DNA of 64,000 nt from Ignavibacteria bacterium. GTDB lineage: Bacteria; Bacteroidota; Ignavibacteria; Kapaibacteriales; UBA961. Location of the stretch: assembly GCA_016873735.1 (NCBI GenBank), contig VGWD01000009.1:1-64000 (forward strand), given 5' to 3'. Of this stretch, positions 53,495 through 59,832 are shown piece after piece; position 1 is the stretch's first letter, and every line of letters starts with the position of its first letter. Under the pieces are notes generated by a model, which did no database searches, was not told the origin of the DNA, and saw nothing but the letters and a program-made list of their open reading frames with translations. Both the position numbers and the translations under genes were made by a program.

Positions 53495-54373
53495 ATGAGT
53501 TTTGATGTTTCTAAAGCGATGGAGTGGGCATATAAAGACATGCTCACGTTTTTTCCGGAAAATGTCAGCACATTTGGAAGCGAACTGGATCAATTGTTCG
53601 CGATGATATATTATGCCTCGGTAGCCATCTTCTTCATTACCTATGGAATCTTGATTGCCTTCATCATTATGTACAGGCATCAAGAGGGAAGAAGGGCATA
53701 CCATTATCATGGCAATAATCTCGTGGAATTCACATGGACATTATTGCCTACATTTTTATTCGCCGGAATCGGCTTGTGGAGTGATGATGCTTGGACTAAA
53801 TCCAAGTCAGCATACAGAGTTCCAAATCCCGATGTTACAATTGATGTTCTCGGTTATCAATCCGGATTTGGTTGGCAATTCCGTTATCCAGGACCGGACG
53901 GTGTATTCGGCAAAAAGGAACGTAATCAAATCAGCAGTGCAAATCCATTTGGTATAGATTCCAATGATGTGCATGGAAAAGACGATTTGGTTATTATCAG
54001 CCCCGGTGGAGCGCGTCCGGTTGAAGCACATTTGCCCATTAACAAGAATGTCTTGGTGAACCTATCTTCCAATGATGTTTTGCACAGTTTCTTTCTTCCC
54101 AATTTCAGAGTGAAGCAAGATGCGGTGCCTGGTCAGTGGATCAAGGTATGGTTCAATGGGACTAAAGCCGGTAGATATGAAATAGCATGTGCCGAGCTTT
54201 GTGGTTCAGGACATTATAACATGAGAGGTTTGTTGATCATGGATTCCCAGCAGGATTATGATGCATGGTTAGATCAACAATATAAACTCAAGAAACCAGA
54301 AACAGCACCTGCTGCGGATTCGACCGCAGCCTTGGCAGTAGCACCTGATTCCACTACAACTAAGAAAAATTAA
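53495..54373 (+). CDS. coxB: Cytochrome c oxidase subunit II
   Basis: 292 residues. Two N-terminal membrane helices (IYYASVAIFFITYGILIAFI and VEFTWTLLPTFLFAGIGLW) precede a periplasmic cupredoxin domain. The CuA site is visible as LHSFFLPNFRVKQD with the first His and CAELCGSGHYNM near residue 237, giving two Cys, His and Met. No fused cytochrome c domain is present; the chain ends in an Ala/Thr/Lys-rich tail. An insert (YPGPDGVFGKKERNQI) seen in FCB-group and related oxidases is present. It sits 36 bases after the cytochrome c gene and before coxA. Confidence 0.95.
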   Translation: MSFDVSKAMEWAYKDMLTFFPENVSTFGSELDQLFAMIYYASVAIFFITYGILIAFIIMYRHQEGRRAYHYHGNNLVEFTWTLLPTFLFAGIGLWSDDAWTKSKSAYRVPNPDVTIDVLGYQSGFGWQFRYPGPDGVFGKKERNQISSANPFGIDSNDVHGKDDLVIISPGGARPVEAHLPINKNVLVNLSSNDVLHSFFLPNFRVKQDAVPGQWIKVWFNGTKAGRYEIACAELCGSGHYNMRGLLIMDSQQDYDAWLDQQYKLKKPETAPAADSTAALAVAPDSTTTKKN

Positions 54374-54401
54374 CCATTAACGAATACCATTGGTGGTACA
54401 T

Positions 54402-56285
54402 ATGCAAACGGCAATCGCTCATGCACATGATGCACACGGGAACGCTGCACATGGAGATCATGCTCATCATCACGATGTCTCGTTCATAAGAAAATACGTC
54501 TTCTCAACGGATCACAAAGTTATAGCCAAGCAGTTCATGCTTGCCTCGCTATTGTTCCTTTTCGTTGGGGGATTTTTTGCATTGCTCATCCGCTGGCAAT
54601 TGGCATATCCGGGTGAAGCAATACCTTTGATTGGCAATATTCTTCCTGATACATGGGTATCGGATGGAGCTGTAACGGCCAATTTCTATACGCAACTACT
54701 GTCTCTTCACGGTACAGTAATGATATTCTATGTCATCATTCCACTTGCCGTGGGTATGTTCGGAAATTTCTGCATTCCTTTGATGATTGGAACAGATGAC
54801 ATGGCATTACCAAAATTGAACATGTTTTCTTTCTGGCTTGTGCCTCCTGCAGGTTTGATTTTGTTATCCGGATTCTTTTTTGATTCAGGAGCAGCCGCTG
54901 CCGGGTGGACGGGCTATCCGCCACTTGGTCCTTCGAGTGGAGCAGGGCAAACAACATGGCTCATCTCGCTCTTTATGATTGGATTTTCTTCCATCATGGG
55001 TGCCACAAACTATCTTGCAACCATTGTTAACAAGAGAGCAAAAGGTTTACAGTTTTTTCAAATGCCATTGACTGTTTGGGCATTGATGATTACAGCCATT
55101 CTAATCATATTAGGCACACCTGTGCTTGCTGCTGCCATTTCAATGCAATTGACTGACCAATATCTGCACACGTCATTTTTTATGCCTGATAATCTTCTTG
55201 TTGGTGCACGAGACAATTCTGTATTGACCGGTGCATTTATACAAAAAGGAAATGAACTACTCGAGCATAAACAATTGCTTGGCGGTGGTGGTCAACCAAT
55301 TCTTTGGCAACATTTGTTTTGGTTCTATTCTCATCCAGCCGTGTATATCATGATTCTTCCCGGAATGGGCATTGTATCTGATGTATTGGCAACCTTTGCA
55401 CGCAAGCCACTGTACGGATATAAGGCGATGATTTTTGCTATCATGGCTATAGCATTTTTAGGGTTCGTTGTTTGGGGACATCACATGTTCCAGTCCGGTA
55501 TGAATCCTTTGCTTGGTACAACATTCATGCTTTCAACAATCGTTATTGCCGTACCTTCAGCAATTAAAATTTTCAATTGGCTTGGTACGATTTGGCGAGG
55601 TGATATTCGATTCACAGCTGCAAATCTTAATGCGCTTGCTTTTATCGCAACGTTCATCATTGGTGGATTGAGCGGTGTGTTCATGGCATCTGCTCCGGTT
55701 GATATCTATATCCACGATACCTATTTCATTGTTGCTCACATTCACTATGTTCTTTTTGGTGGTGCTTTGTTTGCAATATTTGCAGGAATCTATTATTGGT
55801 TTCCGAAAATGTATGGAAAAATGCTTAATGAGAGTTTAGGTCGTAAGCATTTCTATTGGTCATTTGTATTTTTCAATCTCACATTCTATCCAATGCACAT
55901 TTTGGGTGTTGGTGGGCACATGAGAAGAATTTACAATCCATATATCTATGAGTTTTTACAACAATTCCAACCAATGAATCAGTTTATCACATTTGCTGCA
56001 ATCATTCTTGGATTTTCTCAGCTCATTCTAATCTTCAATATATTCTGGTCACTCAAATATGGTAAGGCTGCTCCAAGAAATCCTTGGCAGGCCAATACAT
56101 TGGAATGGGCGGCACCTGCGCATCCCGGACATGGAAATTTTGATACGGATATCCAAGTATATCGTGGTCCTTATGAATTTTCAGTACCTAGTAGAACCGC
56201 TGATTTCTATCCTCAATGGGAAGAACCTCAAGGTCAACCGGAAGAAGTTGTGGCGAAAGACTCTCATTTAAGACAGCATGCATAA
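54402..56285 (+). CDS. coxA: Cytochrome c oxidase subunit I, A2 type
   Basis: 627 residues from the ATG at 54402 (GGTGG upstream; a TTG at 54390 is possible). A His-rich N-terminus (HAHDAHGNAAHGDHAHHHDV) precedes about twelve membrane helices with the haem and CuB ligands. The segment FYSHPAVYIMILPG lacks the D-channel Glu of A1 oxidases and instead has the YS pair, the A2-type signature known from Rhodothermus and Thermus caa3 enzymes. HHMFQSG and HDTYFIVAHIHYVLFGG carry the CuB and haem histidines. It reduces oxygen and pumps protons. Confidence 0.96.
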   Translation: MQTAIAHAHDAHGNAAHGDHAHHHDVSFIRKYVFSTDHKVIAKQFMLASLLFLFVGGFFALLIRWQLAYPGEAIPLIGNILPDTWVSDGAVTANFYTQLLSLHGTVMIFYVIIPLAVGMFGNFCIPLMIGTDDMALPKLNMFSFWLVPPAGLILLSGFFFDSGAAAAGWTGYPPLGPSSGAGQTTWLISLFMIGFSSIMGATNYLATIVNKRAKGLQFFQMPLTVWALMITAILIILGTPVLAAAISMQLTDQYLHTSFFMPDNLLVGARDNSVLTGAFIQKGNELLEHKQLLGGGGQPILWQHLFWFYSHPAVYIMILPGMGIVSDVLATFARKPLYGYKAMIFAIMAIAFLGFVVWGHHMFQSGMNPLLGTTFMLSTIVIAVPSAIKIFNWLGTIWRGDIRFTAANLNALAFIATFIIGGLSGVFMASAPVDIYIHDTYFIVAHIHYVLFGGALFAIFAGIYYWFPKMYGKMLNESLGRKHFYWSFVFFNLTFYPMHILGVGGHMRRIYNPYIYEFLQQFQPMNQFITFAAIILGFSQLILIFNIFWSLKYGKAAPRNPWQANTLEWAAPAHPGHGNFDTDIQVYRGPYEFSVPSRTADFYPQWEEPQGQPEEVVAKDSHLRQHA

Positions 56286-56329
56286 GATTAGGATGACCTG
56301 ATCACTGTTCACCATTTAGCGGTATTACC

Positions 56330-57241
56330 GTGAGCACTAAAGACACAGATCATCAGGTCAATACATTACAAGCGTACTTTGAACTAACGAAACCAGGCAT
56401 TACCCGAATGATCGTCTTAACGGCGGCCACAGGGTATTATTTAGCGATTGATACTCATTTTGAGATTTTCGTCTCCTCGAGCGGGATGTTATTGCCCTTC
56501 ATGTTTGCGATGTTGGGTACAGCACTGACTTCTGCCGGAAGTTGCGTTCTGAACAATGTCATGGAAATTCAATTTGATAAATCCATGAAAAGAACAGCTC
56601 ATAGAGCATTGCCATCAGGAATTGTTTCAAAGCAGTCTGCATCTATTTTCGGTATTGCTCTTTCTTTGATTGGATTGTTCATATTGTATTTCTGGGTCAA
56701 TCCTTTAACATCGACTTTGGCATTCTTGTCAATACTTTCTTATGTGTATTTATATACACCACTAAAAAGAAAAACCAAGTTGTCATTGTATGCAGGTACT
56801 TTACCGGGTGCCTTGCCCGCGCTCGGAGGTTGGACTGCATGTACCAATAGCATTGAAATACCCGGAATACTATTGTTCTTGGTATTGATATGTTGGCAAA
56901 TACCACATTTTCTGGCTCTTGCATGGATTTATAGAGTCGACTATGAGCAAGCAGGGTTCAAGATGCATACCGAGGGTGGTGATTCCACAGGAACAACAAT
57001 AGCTATGCTTTCAATTGTTTATGCCGTTTTTGGTGGGATTGCATCCACGCTGATGTGGAGATATGCCCCACTTGGTTTCGTTTTTGGAATAGGAGCTATA
57101 GTGCTTTCATTCTTTTTTCTCTATGCCTGCATTGCTTTTCTACGCAATCAGGATGGAAAAAGCGCGAAAATGCAATTATATGCATCCTATGCTTTTTTGT
57201 CAGGAATATTTTTGTTGGTGTTTGTCAATAAACAACTGTAA
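56330..57241 (+). CDS. ctaB: Protohaem IX farnesyltransferase (haem O synthase)
   Basis: 303 residues, a UbiA-type prenyltransferase with about nine membrane helices. It adds a farnesyl chain to haem b, making haem O for the oxidase. The prenyl-diphosphate motif is NNVMEIQFDKSMKRTAHRAL near residue 82, with Glu in place of the first Asp, as in many Bacteroidota members. A second motif region is YRVDYEQAGFKM near 202. The start is GTG at 56330. It sits between coxA and coxC, as is common. The haem A synthase (ctaA) is not in this window. Confidence 0.93.
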   Translation: MSTKDTDHQVNTLQAYFELTKPGITRMIVLTAATGYYLAIDTHFEIFVSSSGMLLPFMFAMLGTALTSAGSCVLNNVMEIQFDKSMKRTAHRALPSGIVSKQSASIFGIALSLIGLFILYFWVNPLTSTLAFLSILSYVYLYTPLKRKTKLSLYAGTLPGALPALGGWTACTNSIEIPGILLFLVLICWQIPHFLALAWIYRVDYEQAGFKMHTEGGDSTGTTIAMLSIVYAVFGGIASTLMWRYAPLGFVFGIGAIVLSFFFLYACIAFLRNQDGKSAKMQLYASYAFLSGIFLLVFVNKQL

Positions 57242-57246
57242 ACACA

Positions 57247-57843
57247 ATGTCATCAGGACTATCTTTAGCACATGAACCGGTAAGCAAAGTCCCTCATGGA
57301 AAATTAGCCATGTGGATATTTCTTGCTTCTGAGATCATGTTTTTCACCGGCTTTTTTGGTGCATTCATCGTATTGAGAAACTCCAATTTGGAATTGTTTT
57401 CTCATTCTGCGGGTGAATTAAATAAATGGCTTGCACTTTTGAATACATTCATTTTGATAGGTTCATCATTGACAATGGCATTGTCGATATTGAATCTTGA
57501 AAAAGGGAATACAGGAAAGTTCAAGTTGTTTCTTGGACTGACCATACTTTGTGGATTTGGATTTTTGATTGTAAAGACAATTGAATATTCCACAAAATTC
57601 GGACATCACATATTTCCATGGACTAATGTCTTTTTCTCATTCTATTTCTTGATGACCGGATTTCACGCGGTTCACGTTATAGCTGGAATGATACCTATGA
57701 CATTCATGTTCATTAAGGCATTTACCAAGAAGGGATACAATCATCCTGTTAAAGTTGAAACATTGGGTCTTTACTGGCACTTTGTGGATCTTGTCTGGAT
57801 TTTCCTCTTCCCGGTATTGTATCTCATTTTTCCTTCGCATTAA
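57247..57843 (+). CDS. coxC: Cytochrome c oxidase subunit III
   Basis: 198 residues with about five membrane helices. HGKLAMWIFLASEIMFFTGF near residue 17 carries the subunit III core with its conserved Glu. TGFHAVHVIAGMI near 137 and GLYWHFVDLVWIFLFPVLYL at the end complete the family pattern. The short length is usual for bacterial subunits with five helices. It begins six bases after ctaB. It supports stability of the catalytic subunit and the proton route. Confidence 0.93.
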   Translation: MSSGLSLAHEPVSKVPHGKLAMWIFLASEIMFFTGFFGAFIVLRNSNLELFSHSAGELNKWLALLNTFILIGSSLTMALSILNLEKGNTGKFKLFLGLTILCGFGFLIVKTIEYSTKFGHHIFPWTNVFFSFYFLMTGFHAVHVIAGMIPMTFMFIKAFTKKGYNHPVKVETLGLYWHFVDLVWIFLFPVLYLIFPSH

Positions 57844-57855
57844 GGAGCAAAGCAC

Positions 57856-58161
57856 ATGAGTGGACATCATCCGGATTCTAATGCAATGTTTGGTTCTTAT
57901 ATCAGAGTTGCGAGTGCATTGTTTGGATTGACAGTTTTGACTGTCTTGGCAGCAATGGATTGGGTGCCAAAAAGCTGGGGTGAAGCAGGTAATACTTTGC
58001 ATATCGCCATCGGACTTTTGATTGCCGTCGTAAAATCATTTATGGTATTCTATATCTTCATGCATTTGAAGTTTGATAATAAGTTCATACGTGCTTTTGT
58101 GTTCGTACCCATTTTTCTGTTTTTTGTCCTCACATTCGCCCTTAATGTATTAGGTCCATAA
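57856..58161 (+). CDS. coxD: Cytochrome c oxidase subunit IV family protein
   Basis: 101 residues with three hydrophobic helices (IRVASALFGLTVLTVLAAM, LLIAVVKSFMVFYIFMHL and FVFVPIFLFFVLTFALNVLG). The AVVKSFMVFYIFMHLKF segment is characteristic of the prokaryotic subunit IV (DUF983-unrelated, COX4_pro type). It begins 12 bases after coxC and stops one base before sco. It is a small accessory subunit of the oxidase with no catalytic residues. Confidence 0.85.
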   Translation: MSGHHPDSNAMFGSYIRVASALFGLTVLTVLAAMDWVPKSWGEAGNTLHIAIGLLIAVVKSFMVFYIFMHLKFDNKFIRAFVFVPIFLFFVLTFALNVLGP

Positions 58162-58162
58162 A

Positions 58163-58756
58163 ATGTGTTCAACACTAGCAAAATCATGTATTATGATTTT
58201 GTTGACAGGTTCGTTCTTTCTCAATTCTTGTGTACAATCTGAACGTACACAACAACAATCAAATGATCCATTTGCTTCTCTCAAAGTGTATGGCTCTTTA
58301 CCTGAGTTTAGAGGATATACTGATGAGAATAAGCAGGCAAACTCTTCACTGCTCAAGAGTAAGACAACAATCATCAGTTTCTTTTTCACATCATGTGGTG
58401 ATATTTGTCCTAAACTCAATTTGGTTAAGAGCAGGATTGTCAATAACCATGCAAGTGAATCTTTGCGTTTCATATCAGTGACCGTTGATCCGCTTACAGA
58501 TAAACCAAGTCATTTGCGTGAGCATAGGCAACTCATGCAATTCACTGATAAGCGTTGGTCATTTGTTCGAATGGACAATGATTCCATACTAGAATCATTT
58601 ATGAATGGCATGTTGATTGGTTATGCAGAAAATCCTCAAAATCACACGGCACGATTGATTTTATTGGATTCTAAATCTCGCATCAGAGGATACTTTGATG
58701 CATTGGACAAACAGCAAGTTGATTCATTGGAATCAATTTTGGAAAAAGTACTATGA
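58163..58756 (+). CDS. sco: SCO1/SenC family copper-assembly lipoprotein
   Basis: 197 residues. A lipoprotein signal ends in FFLNSC. The thioredoxin-like domain has the copper site FTSCGDICPK near residue 75 and the third ligand His in QNHTARLILLD near 158. SCO proteins deliver copper or reduce cysteines during CuA assembly in subunit II. The order after coxD supports that role. The last four bases overlap the next small gene as ATGA. Confidence 0.92.
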   Translation: MCSTLAKSCIMILLTGSFFLNSCVQSERTQQQSNDPFASLKVYGSLPEFRGYTDENKQANSSLLKSKTTIISFFFTSCGDICPKLNLVKSRIVNNHASESLRFISVTVDPLTDKPSHLREHRQLMQFTDKRWSFVRMDNDSILESFMNGMLIGYAENPQNHTARLILLDSKSRIRGYFDALDKQQVDSLESILEKVL

Positions 58757-58983
58757 AGAAAGTTATATTGTTGATTTTGCTTTTTACGTTTACAATTATT
58801 GGTCAAGCAATAGCTTGTCCAAATTGTAAAGATGCATATACTCCGGGTTCAACCGGAGCGAGTATAGGCGAAAGTTATTCTTGGAGTGTGTTATTCATGC
58901 TCTTGATGCCGATTGCCACCGTAACGTTCATATCGCTTCGCATAGCATCTGCGGCGAAAAAAAATAGAAACACTGATTTGTGA
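58753..58983 (+). CDS. Small membrane protein with CPNC motif, uncharacterised
   Basis: 76 residues, not matched to a named family. A hydrophobic signal or membrane segment (KKVILLILLFTFTIIGQAI) is followed by ACPNCKDAYTPG, a possible metal or thiol CxxC site, then a second helix (SVLFMLLMPIATVTFISLRI) and a basic tail (AAKKNRNTDL). It overlaps sco by four bases (ATGA) and lies 27 bases before actA. Similar short CPxCK proteins with a C-terminal helix may occur in oxidase clusters of other phyla, by recollection. An assembly or copper-handling role in the oxidase or complex III is a guess from place and motif. Confidence 0.8.
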   Translation: MKKVILLILLFTFTIIGQAIACPNCKDAYTPGSTGASIGESYSWSVLFMLLMPIATVTFISLRIASAAKKNRNTDL

Positions 58984-59010: not shown

Positions 59011-59832
59011 ATGTTCAACAAAGCTACAGACAAAAAAATCAAAGGAATTACGATTGGAGGCCTTGGTACAGTGCTAACGCTTACCTTGATCGTTATATTT
59101 GGGCAAAACAATAAAGTAACTGATGTAGGTTACCGCCCTGTACAGCCCATACCTTTTTCTCATAAGCTTCATGCAAGTGAAGAAACAATTTCACATAATG
59201 GAACAGAAATGAAAGGCCTTGGCATAAAGTGTATGTATTGTCATGCACAAGCCGAAGTATCTGCTCATTCTCCTGTTCCGACCACTAGCACATGCATGAA
59301 TTGCCATGTATTGCCAATGCAATTGGAAAATGAGCGTGGTAATCCCGGTTCACTTGAATTGATTCGCACGGCATATGAAAAGAATCAACCTATAGAGTGG
59401 GTTCGAATTCACAAAGTGCCTGACTATGTCCATTTCAATCATAGCAGACATATTCGCGCTCAGATTGATTGTAAGTCATGTCACGGTCCGGTTGAAACAA
59501 TGGGGGTCATATCTCAATACAAACCATTGTCAATGGGTTGGTGTTTGGATTGCCATAGAAATCCCGAAAAATTCATAGTTCCTGCTCGTCCGATTTCAGG
59601 TATTTACAGTTATGATTATGAGAATAGATCTTCAATTGAGAAGTTCATCGGCGTAAAGGCAAATTCTTATGATCCAAATGCAAAAGCAATTCTTGCTAAA
59701 ATGCGTGAAATCGTTTCACCGCATTATGGTATGGTTGAAACAGCTGATTTACCCAAGCCGATGGTTGCCGGTATGTTGACACCAAAGCATGCGCAATATG
59801 GACCTGAGAATTGTTCCTCATGTCATCATTGA
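59011..59832 (+). CDS. actA: Alternative complex III subunit ActA, pentahaem cytochrome c
   Basis: 273 residues. One N-terminal membrane helix (ITIGGLGTVLTLTLIVIFG) is followed by five CxxCH haem sites: CMYCH, CMNCH, CKSCH, CLDCH and CSSCH. Extra His residues (FSHKLH, VHFNHSRH) suit bis-His ligation. Five haems, the anchor and position directly before actB fit ActA of alternative complex III, a menaquinol:cytochrome oxidoreductase that replaces bc1. A SCO gene and the small CPNC gene lie just upstream. Confidence 0.95.
   Translation: MFNKATDKKIKGITIGGLGTVLTLTLIVIFGQNNKVTDVGYRPVQPIPFSHKLHASEETISHNGTEMKGLGIKCMYCHAQAEVSAHSPVPTTSTCMNCHVLPMQLENERGNPGSLELIRTAYEKNQPIEWVRIHKVPDYVHFNHSRHIRAQIDCKSCHGPVETMGVISQYKPLSMGWCLDCHRNPEKFIVPARPISGIYSYDYENRSSIEKFIGVKANSYDPNAKAILAKMREIVSPHYGMVETADLPKPMVAGMLTPKHAQYGPENCSSCHH

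Follow-up and report, generated by a model that had tools for sequence, protein, structure and literature searches.

Two described systems bear on the protein reported here. TlpA, a membrane-anchored thiol reductase of Bradyrhizobium, reduces both ScoI and CoxB as described in the accessible text of PMC6696091, and CtaM is proposed, in the accessible part of PMC13344008, to be a copper exporter that acts with Sco. Further factors of copper insertion into cytochrome oxidase are expected according to a passage of Hederstedt's review (PMC9145763). ActG of Rhodothermus marinus, with one predicted helix, was identified by mass fingerprint although the map does not show it, as the accessible text of PMC5928083 reports. 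Here we describe a family of small membrane proteins, represented by a gene in a 64,000-nucleotide stretch of Ignavibacteria DNA (hereafter the window), which we would assign to copper assembly within the biogenesis of cytochrome c oxidase. The family is probably undescribed, without a Pfam, NCBIfam or PDB match, and its planctomycete forms probably add a new selenoprotein family tied to aerobic respiration.

A 76-residue CPNC protein in an oxidase cluster

The Pfam order in the window reads cytochrome c, COX2, COX1, UbiA (ctaB), COX3, COX4_pro, SCO1-SenC, a 76-residue protein, ActA and an ActB-type Fe-S protein (Table 1). An earlier note on this DNA had drawn attention to the small gene as overlapping sco by four bases and leading into actA, which is indeed its arrangement: the frame of 76 codons opens with an ATG inside the stop region of sco (ATGA, 58753-58756), and actA starts 27 bases past its stop. 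CoxB of the same cluster contains the sequence CAELCGSGH, which we take to be a CuA-type motif, so the window oxidase probably needs CuA assembly.

Table 1. Features of the oxidase cluster and of the 76-residue protein in the window.
Feature	Position	Strand	Basis
coxB with CuA-type CAELCGSGH motif, probable final copper acceptor	53495..54373	+	Pfam COX2 and sequence
coxA, ctaB, coxC, cox4, the remaining oxidase cluster	54390..58161	+	Pfam
sco (SCO1-SenC, CxxxCP), with ATGA overlap with the 76-residue frame	58163..58756	+	Pfam and sequence
Family member, cysteine form: signal-like helix, CPNC, membrane helix, basic tail	58753..58983	+	Sequence, family search, alignment
Probable signal peptide, residues 1-21, ending ...QAIA	58753..58815	+	Sequence, AlphaFold2 helix 2-19; cleavage probably just before Cys22
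CPNC motif, residues 22-25, then Lys; both Cys positions are Cys or Sec across collected members	58816..58827	+	Alignment, member tally
Membrane helix, residues about 43-65, then basic tail (presumably cytoplasmic)	58879..58947	+	Hydropathy, AlphaFold2 helix 36-74
actA, multihaem ACIII subunit	59011..59832	+	Pfam

The protein begins MKKVILLILLFTFTIIGQAIA-CPNC-K and has hydrophobic stretches at about residues 4-21 and 43-65, followed by a KK..R tail. The signal or membrane helix, lone CPNC, second helix and basic tail of the earlier description are all present, with one correction. Since A, G, S, T or Q precedes the motif in each of the 117 distinct members that we collected, we read the first helix, as far as sequence can indicate, as a signal peptide that is probably cleaved off rather than as a lasting anchor. 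Hydropathy assigns a membrane helix to 115 of the 117. AlphaFold2, given 27 sequences, returned only helices (residues 2-19, 23-28 and 36-74; mean pLDDT 72) and no fold around the motif.

Several familiar roles for a CxxC pair were rejected. The residue after the motif is K in 79 members, R in 20, S in 8, T in 5, A in 3, V in 1 and Q in 1; His occurs there in 0/117, which rules out the CxxCH haem site of c-type cytochromes, as the earlier note had judged from the window alone. A lipoprotein is contradicted by the tally of residues -3 and -1, with Q before the first Cys in 31/117 and Ala at -3 in the window protein, and by Sec (selenocysteine, U) in place of Cys in 16/117. A zinc ribbon or finger within one chain was discarded too: there are two Cys only, none is added in the 18 residues past the motif (117/117, with one His there in 5/117), and Pfam matches are sub-threshold; zinc may be held between two chains. 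Neither a fold nor a profile match above thresholds supports a thioredoxin-fold oxidoreductase (Pfam, NCBIfam, PDB; AlphaFold2 helices only). Searches of these three databases with single proteins and with profiles gave sub-threshold matches only, six Sec forms reached no NCBIfam cut-off, and a scan of viral contigs found no relative.

Distribution and genomic context

Of 61 genomes, among them that of the window, 34 have matches at E<1e-8, and larger stretches around the gene were analysed for 20 of these 34. In an alignment that again includes the window protein (27 of 30 loci, three near-duplicates being dropped), C22, P23, C25 and G39 are invariant in 27/27 sequences. The number of matches and the invariant Cys pair together mean that the 76-residue frame is not a chance ORF. 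A later family alignment comprised 28 of 47 distinct sequences. The 117 distinct members come from Bacteroidota (including Kapaibacteria), Planctomycetota and Omnitrophota and all carry a CxxC-type pair, as CxxC in 100, UxxC in 16 and CxxU in 1. Homologues therefore reach beyond close strains, with the two positions Cys in all 27 aligned sequences and Cys or Sec in all 117, as the earlier proposal had required.

Among 33 relatives in genome contigs, 24 were labelled Kapaibacterium, Ignavibacteria, Bacteroidetes, Bacteroidota, Chlorobiota or Melioribacter (one only 'bacterium'), 8 were from Planctomycetota and 1 from Omnitrophota. Profile scans placed the family in 31/99 genomes of Bacteroidota, the phylum of the window, although two of these matches are weak and may be unrelated (G064 and G112, E 1e-5 and 1e-4). 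It was likewise present in 32/99 genomes of Planctomycetota (phylum of locus L075) and in 20/145 of Omnitrophota (phylum of L079), 15 of the latter at E<1e-9; the phylum labels follow record titles and the grouping of the genome collection. A larger planctomycete scan, using a profile that includes Sec forms, detected it in 102/392 genomes at E<=1e-6.

The immediate surroundings differ between lineages. In 20 Kapaibacteria-type loci, actA/actB/actC come next in 20/20, and on the upstream side the first gene that could be recognised is sco in 18/20, the exceptions being a contig end (L035) and a locus without sco by BLAST (L049); actA is also next in 24/24 of loci L051-L074. In loci L075-L083, some of them short, an act gene was recognised in 0/9. 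Other Bacteroidota loci (L094-L104) contain cox genes in 10/11, L097 being a contig edge and L094 having an actC-type gene at its far end. Four Bacteroidota loci (L097, L180, L181, L182) had no recognised cox gene nearby. The commonest order in Planctomycetota, with variants, is coxB-coxA-ctaB-coxC-cox4-sco-DUF420-gene, where DUF420 is the CtaM family (PF04238). Omnitrophota have sco-DUF420-gene, with sco in 9/11 and DUF420 in 10/11 of the 3-kb loci. The loci examined in Planctomycetota and Omnitrophota, many of which span only about 3 kb, showed no recognisable act gene. The profile search and inspection of neighbours recommended earlier thus found the gene repeatedly beside sco or cox with its Cys (or Sec) pair, but had actA as its immediate neighbour solely in operons of the Kapaibacteria type. 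The genome of the window has DUF420/ctaM outside the cox cluster, on contig C15 (about 34.2-34.6 kb; L184/L206), while it adjoins the gene in many relatives.

Co-occurrence was counted over the 99 Bacteroidota genomes, which hold the gene in 31, COX2 in 74, DUF420 in 48 and ActD in 70. Genomes with the gene contain DUF420 in 31/31, ActD in 31/31 and COX2 in 30/31, against 17/68, 39/68 and 44/68 of the genomes without it. Within COX2-bearing genomes, DUF420 accompanies the gene in 30/30 and occurs in 17/44 where the gene was not found (p=8e-9); the corresponding values for ActD are 30/30 and 37/44 (p=0.04), both p-values ignoring relatedness. Distances point the same way. DUF420 lies within 1 kb of the gene in 18 of the 31 genomes and within 20 kb in 21, but not within that range in the other 10, including the window's own. 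For ActD the counts are 0 at 1 kb and 10 at 20 kb; five of these ten genomes are of the Kapaibacteria type with the window's order, and in the five outside that order type, ActD and the gene are 10-18 kb apart on one contig. In some non-Kapaibacteria genomes ACIII, cox and the gene form one run, and the gene stands at the far, sco/DUF420 end. G087 and G110 have the gene in a ctaB-coxC-cox4-sco-DUF420 run with ActD about 94 and 28 kb off. In G129 the gene sits in a cox cluster near 1.95 Mb and is missing from the other cox cluster, which adjoins ACIII near 0.32 Mb. Genomes G078 and G016 likewise keep the gene in an oxidase cluster without act genes, apart from ACIII. The association with sco, ctaM and cox genes expected of a CuA/CuB assembly factor was found.

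These patterns do not favor the suggestion that the protein is dedicated to assembling complex III with the oxidase. The genomic association expected of an ACIII subunit or dedicated ACIII factor was not found across the family, and an ACIII-specific factor was rejected, since act genes were unrecognised in the planctomycete and Omnitrophota loci, ActD is closer than 20 kb in only 10/31 Bacteroidota, and three genomes (G129, G078, G016) keep the gene with a cluster devoid of act genes. The family may still be linked to ACIII through a supercomplex, because ActD is present in all 31 gene-bearing genomes and lies at a spacing of 10-18 kb in five; the same 31/31 counts against the copper-assembly reading. 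Four genomes (G100, G121, G125, G144; L166-L169) have DUF420 and ACIII-cox clusters and no detected member, and replacement by something else is possible there.

A structural role has to be weighed here as well. The protein could be a small subunit of the oxidase or of an ACIII-oxidase supercomplex, its Cys pair serving as a structural disulfide or metal clip; a one-helix topology and a place in the cox cluster suit an accessory subunit, as do the operon shared with ACIII in Kapaibacteria and the constant company of ActD in Bacteroidota. However, the gene was not found in 44/74 COX2-bearing genomes, searches of PDB with the Cys-form profiles gave no convincing match (among chains whose residues are known), and Cys residues that Sec can replace, here at either position, are typically reactive ones. 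We regard a structural subunit as distinctly improbable.

Probable selenocysteine forms in Planctomycetota

The window protein itself is a Cys/Cys form. In the scan of 99 planctomycete genomes, the family matches of 17 contained a TGA, which falls on the first motif Cys in 16 (UPNC, UPSC, UPGC, UESC, UDSC, UAGC) and on the second in one (CEMU). These genes have a signal-peptide-like stretch upstream of the TGA and the usual helix downstream, and their loci contain sco and DUF420 in 16/17, the 17th having cox genes. An out-of-sample set was then chosen: every TGA-flagged row from a new genome (26), together with 3 short rows and 22 Cys rows, so that its counts are not frequencies. It yielded 28 Sec forms (17 UxxC, 11 CxxU), 22 Cys forms and one unclear case left out of both classes; no cox, sco or DUF420 gene was recognised in these loci of 1.6-3.2 kb for 9/28 Sec and 6/22 Cys forms. 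Altogether, Sec forms occur in 45 planctomycete genomes as 33 UxxC and 12 CxxU, and the TGA is never on both Cys codons. The unclear case (L286, G635:C58:11669-11788) has two adjacent in-frame TGA before the membrane helix and no clear CxxC, and is perhaps diverged, a double-Sec form or chance. One genome, G381, has a Sec form (C505, L187) plus a second match without TGA (C388), a Sec/Cys pair that could respond to selenium supply.

The UxxC loci share a SECIS-like hairpin. Counted from the T of the TGA, a 6-bp stem (GU allowed) is formed by positions 15-20 and 25-30 around GGTC at 21-24; the position and loop resemble those of E. coli fdhF. In the first set (17 Sec loci, 16 of them UxxC) the full stem is present in 12 and GGTC in 13, compared with 0 and 1 in 21 Cys forms of the phylum and 0 and 1 in 72 other Cys forms. 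The 21 'phylum' controls comprise 20 planctomycetes and the Omnitrophota locus L079; L078 was read out of register, as CVAC precedes its CPNC. Because the stem was first defined on the 17 loci scored, the out-of-sample set answers that circularity: its 17 UxxC forms have the full stem in 10 and GGTC in 13, against 0 and 1 of 22 Cys forms (p=3e-5 and 4e-6). In both sets combined, the full stem is found in 22/33 UxxC and 0/43 Cys genes, and is thus missing in 11/33 UxxC loci.

Covariation was assessed in 16 of the 17 first-set loci, the CxxU locus being left out. The score was 0.428, a value reached by 0/500 shuffles, compared with 0.145 for shuffled alignments, and partners slid out of place gave 0.02-0.13. 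Of all cells, 88.5% pair, and five of the six pairs change on both sides (reached by 7/500 shuffles); with the 3' side slid by -3, 74% of cells still pair, without covariation. The 12 CxxU loci do not fit the UxxC stem, their hairpins coming from single-sequence folding. CCGGT (8) or AGGT (3) occurs in the same part of 11/12 (L198, L257-L266, several of them close relatives; L255 is the exception). As the CxxU loci carry a loop sequence of their own, it seems that separate lineages put Sec at one Cys or the other.

Machinery for selenocysteine insertion follows the Sec forms, in tests that cover the first 17 Sec-form genomes. tRNA-Sec above 58 bits was detected in 66/99 planctomycetes, so that selenocysteine use looks common in this phylum, and in 15/17 Sec-form versus 8/15 Cys-form genomes (p=0.05). 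The 58-bit cut was set by us, since RF01852 lists ordinary tRNAs at E<1e-3 in 99/99 genomes and 75/99 pass the gathering score. SelB, searched in 33 genomes, exceeded its curated cut-off in 17/17 Sec-form versus 8/15 Cys-form genomes (p=0.002). The SelB search did not find it in G000, the genome of the window.

Could the TGA codons be ordinary stops in genes that are broken or mis-sequenced, with no selenoprotein involved? Two of the 17 Sec-form genomes do lack a tRNA-Sec above the cut, and 5/17 first-set loci lack the full stem. Yet TGA falls on a motif Cys codon in 43/43 flagged rows of distinct genomes from the two planctomycete scans, no second TGA occurs within the 46-residue core of the 28 new Sec forms (0/28), and the natural stops of the first 17 genes are mixed (TGA 10, TAG 6, TAA 1). 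Together with the hairpin, its covariation and the association with SelB, this led us to reject ordinary stops, which we consider extremely improbable. General reassignment of TGA was also rejected, 10/17 first-set genes themselves terminating in TGA. The planctomycete members are probably a selenoprotein family.

Standard annotation likely truncates or misses the Sec forms because the UGA breaks the frame at about codon 20-30. A table of 119 selenoprotein families (review PMC13188914, 2026) has no entry that we could match to this one, and the accessible parts of PMC9312934 and PMC12013277 show no member. Our literature searches returned no paper on the family, an absence that applies within those searches; a candidate list for two planctomycetes (S9 Table, PMC4807772) may hold a member.

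A proposed role in copper-site assembly

That Sec can stand for Cys in either place, though never in both among the forms seen, marks both residues as chemically reactive; as an established principle (PMC1794560), such replacement points to reactive rather than structural residues. The earlier suggestion of copper binding or thiol exchange is supported as the right class of function; beside sco and cox, both positions of the pair are invariably Cys or Sec. The reading that we prefer, at about even odds, is a small membrane-bound thiol (or selenol) reductant that works beside CtaM and maintains the CxxxC of Sco and the cysteines of CuA in the reduced state that metallation needs. Removal of the signal peptide would leave the reactive pair as the mature N-terminus or no more than about three residues from it, where it would face the periplasm, tethered by one membrane helix. 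There the pair would act on Sco and/or CoxB, and Sec would make it more reactive in many planctomycetes. Several observations count against this reading. The roughly 18 residues outside the membrane are too few for a thioredoxin fold, which leaves the recycling of the pair unexplained, and 17/48 DUF420-bearing Bacteroidota genomes have no detected member, so the family is dispensable or replaceable. The 10/31 genomes without DUF420 within 20 kb, the four Bacteroidota loci with no recognised cox gene nearby and the out-of-sample loci in which cox, sco and DUF420 all went unrecognised weigh in the same direction.

Alternatively, the two residues could be Cu(I) ligands that pass copper from CtaM (or the periplasm) to Sco, in the manner of a membrane-tethered mini-Cox17, with Sec as a soft ligand instead of a redox catalyst. 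The sco-ctaM-gene order and the CuA-type oxidase in the window agree with such a relay, but it would have two ligands only, the 18 residues that follow showing no cluster of conserved His or Met, and small Cu(I) carriers usually add further ligands or a fold. CtaM as a proposed exporter (PMC13344008, accessible part) would supply the copper, and Sec is a possible metal ligand in some selenoproteins according to the accessible text of PMC13188914. We prefer a reductant since redox pairs are where Sec typically occurs and conservation extends to just two ligands; the relay is possible, though we hold it to be doubtful, and the two may be one mechanism. More speculatively, a mature N-terminus H2N-Sec/Cys-Pro-x-Cys, exposed by signal peptidase, might bring the free amine, selenolate and thiolate together as a one-helix centre for copper, reducing Cu(II) and passing Cu(I) on from CtaM to Sco. 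We think this unlikely; were it true, assembly of the oxygen-reducing enzyme would be selenium-dependent in selenium-using planctomycetes, and no earlier selenoprotein, perhaps, would have had the building of cytochrome oxidase as its dedicated task.

Players are still missing from the insertion of copper into cytochrome oxidase, and the family offers a concrete, easily deleted candidate in Bacteroidota. Its Sec forms are a natural experiment that names two reactive residues and makes periplasmic redox control of copper sites testable.

Compared with known systems, the reductant reading has partial counterparts. The CPxC motif is that of glutaredoxin and DsbA, and the family shares the pair, often followed by Lys or Arg, but has neither the thioredoxin fold nor the length for one. 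Mitochondrial Cox17 and COA6 are set apart by their description as soluble, twin-Cys, eukaryotic proteins; the likeness is that of small Cys proteins in the Sco/Cox2 branch of CuA assembly (PMC6696091, accessible text). Known UxxC and CxxU selenoprotein families (PMC13188914) also have Sec for one Cys of a CxxC, Cys homologues and a SECIS after the UGA, yet none of the 119 in Table 1 of that review is presented as a protein with a single helix encoded among cytochrome oxidase genes. CtaM shares the setting of heme-copper oxidase biogenesis and is both genetic neighbour and co-occurring partner of the family; however, it has four or five membrane segments (PMC9145763, accessible sections), belongs to PF04238 and shows no sequence relation that we could see. 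TlpA is alike in having a membrane-tethered periplasmic Cys pair that works on Sco and CoxB before CuA is metallated, which for the present family is a proposal; TlpA, as far as its accessible description goes, is thioredoxin-like, whereas the family presents a short CxxC, UxxC or CxxU tail on one helix, with no family match.
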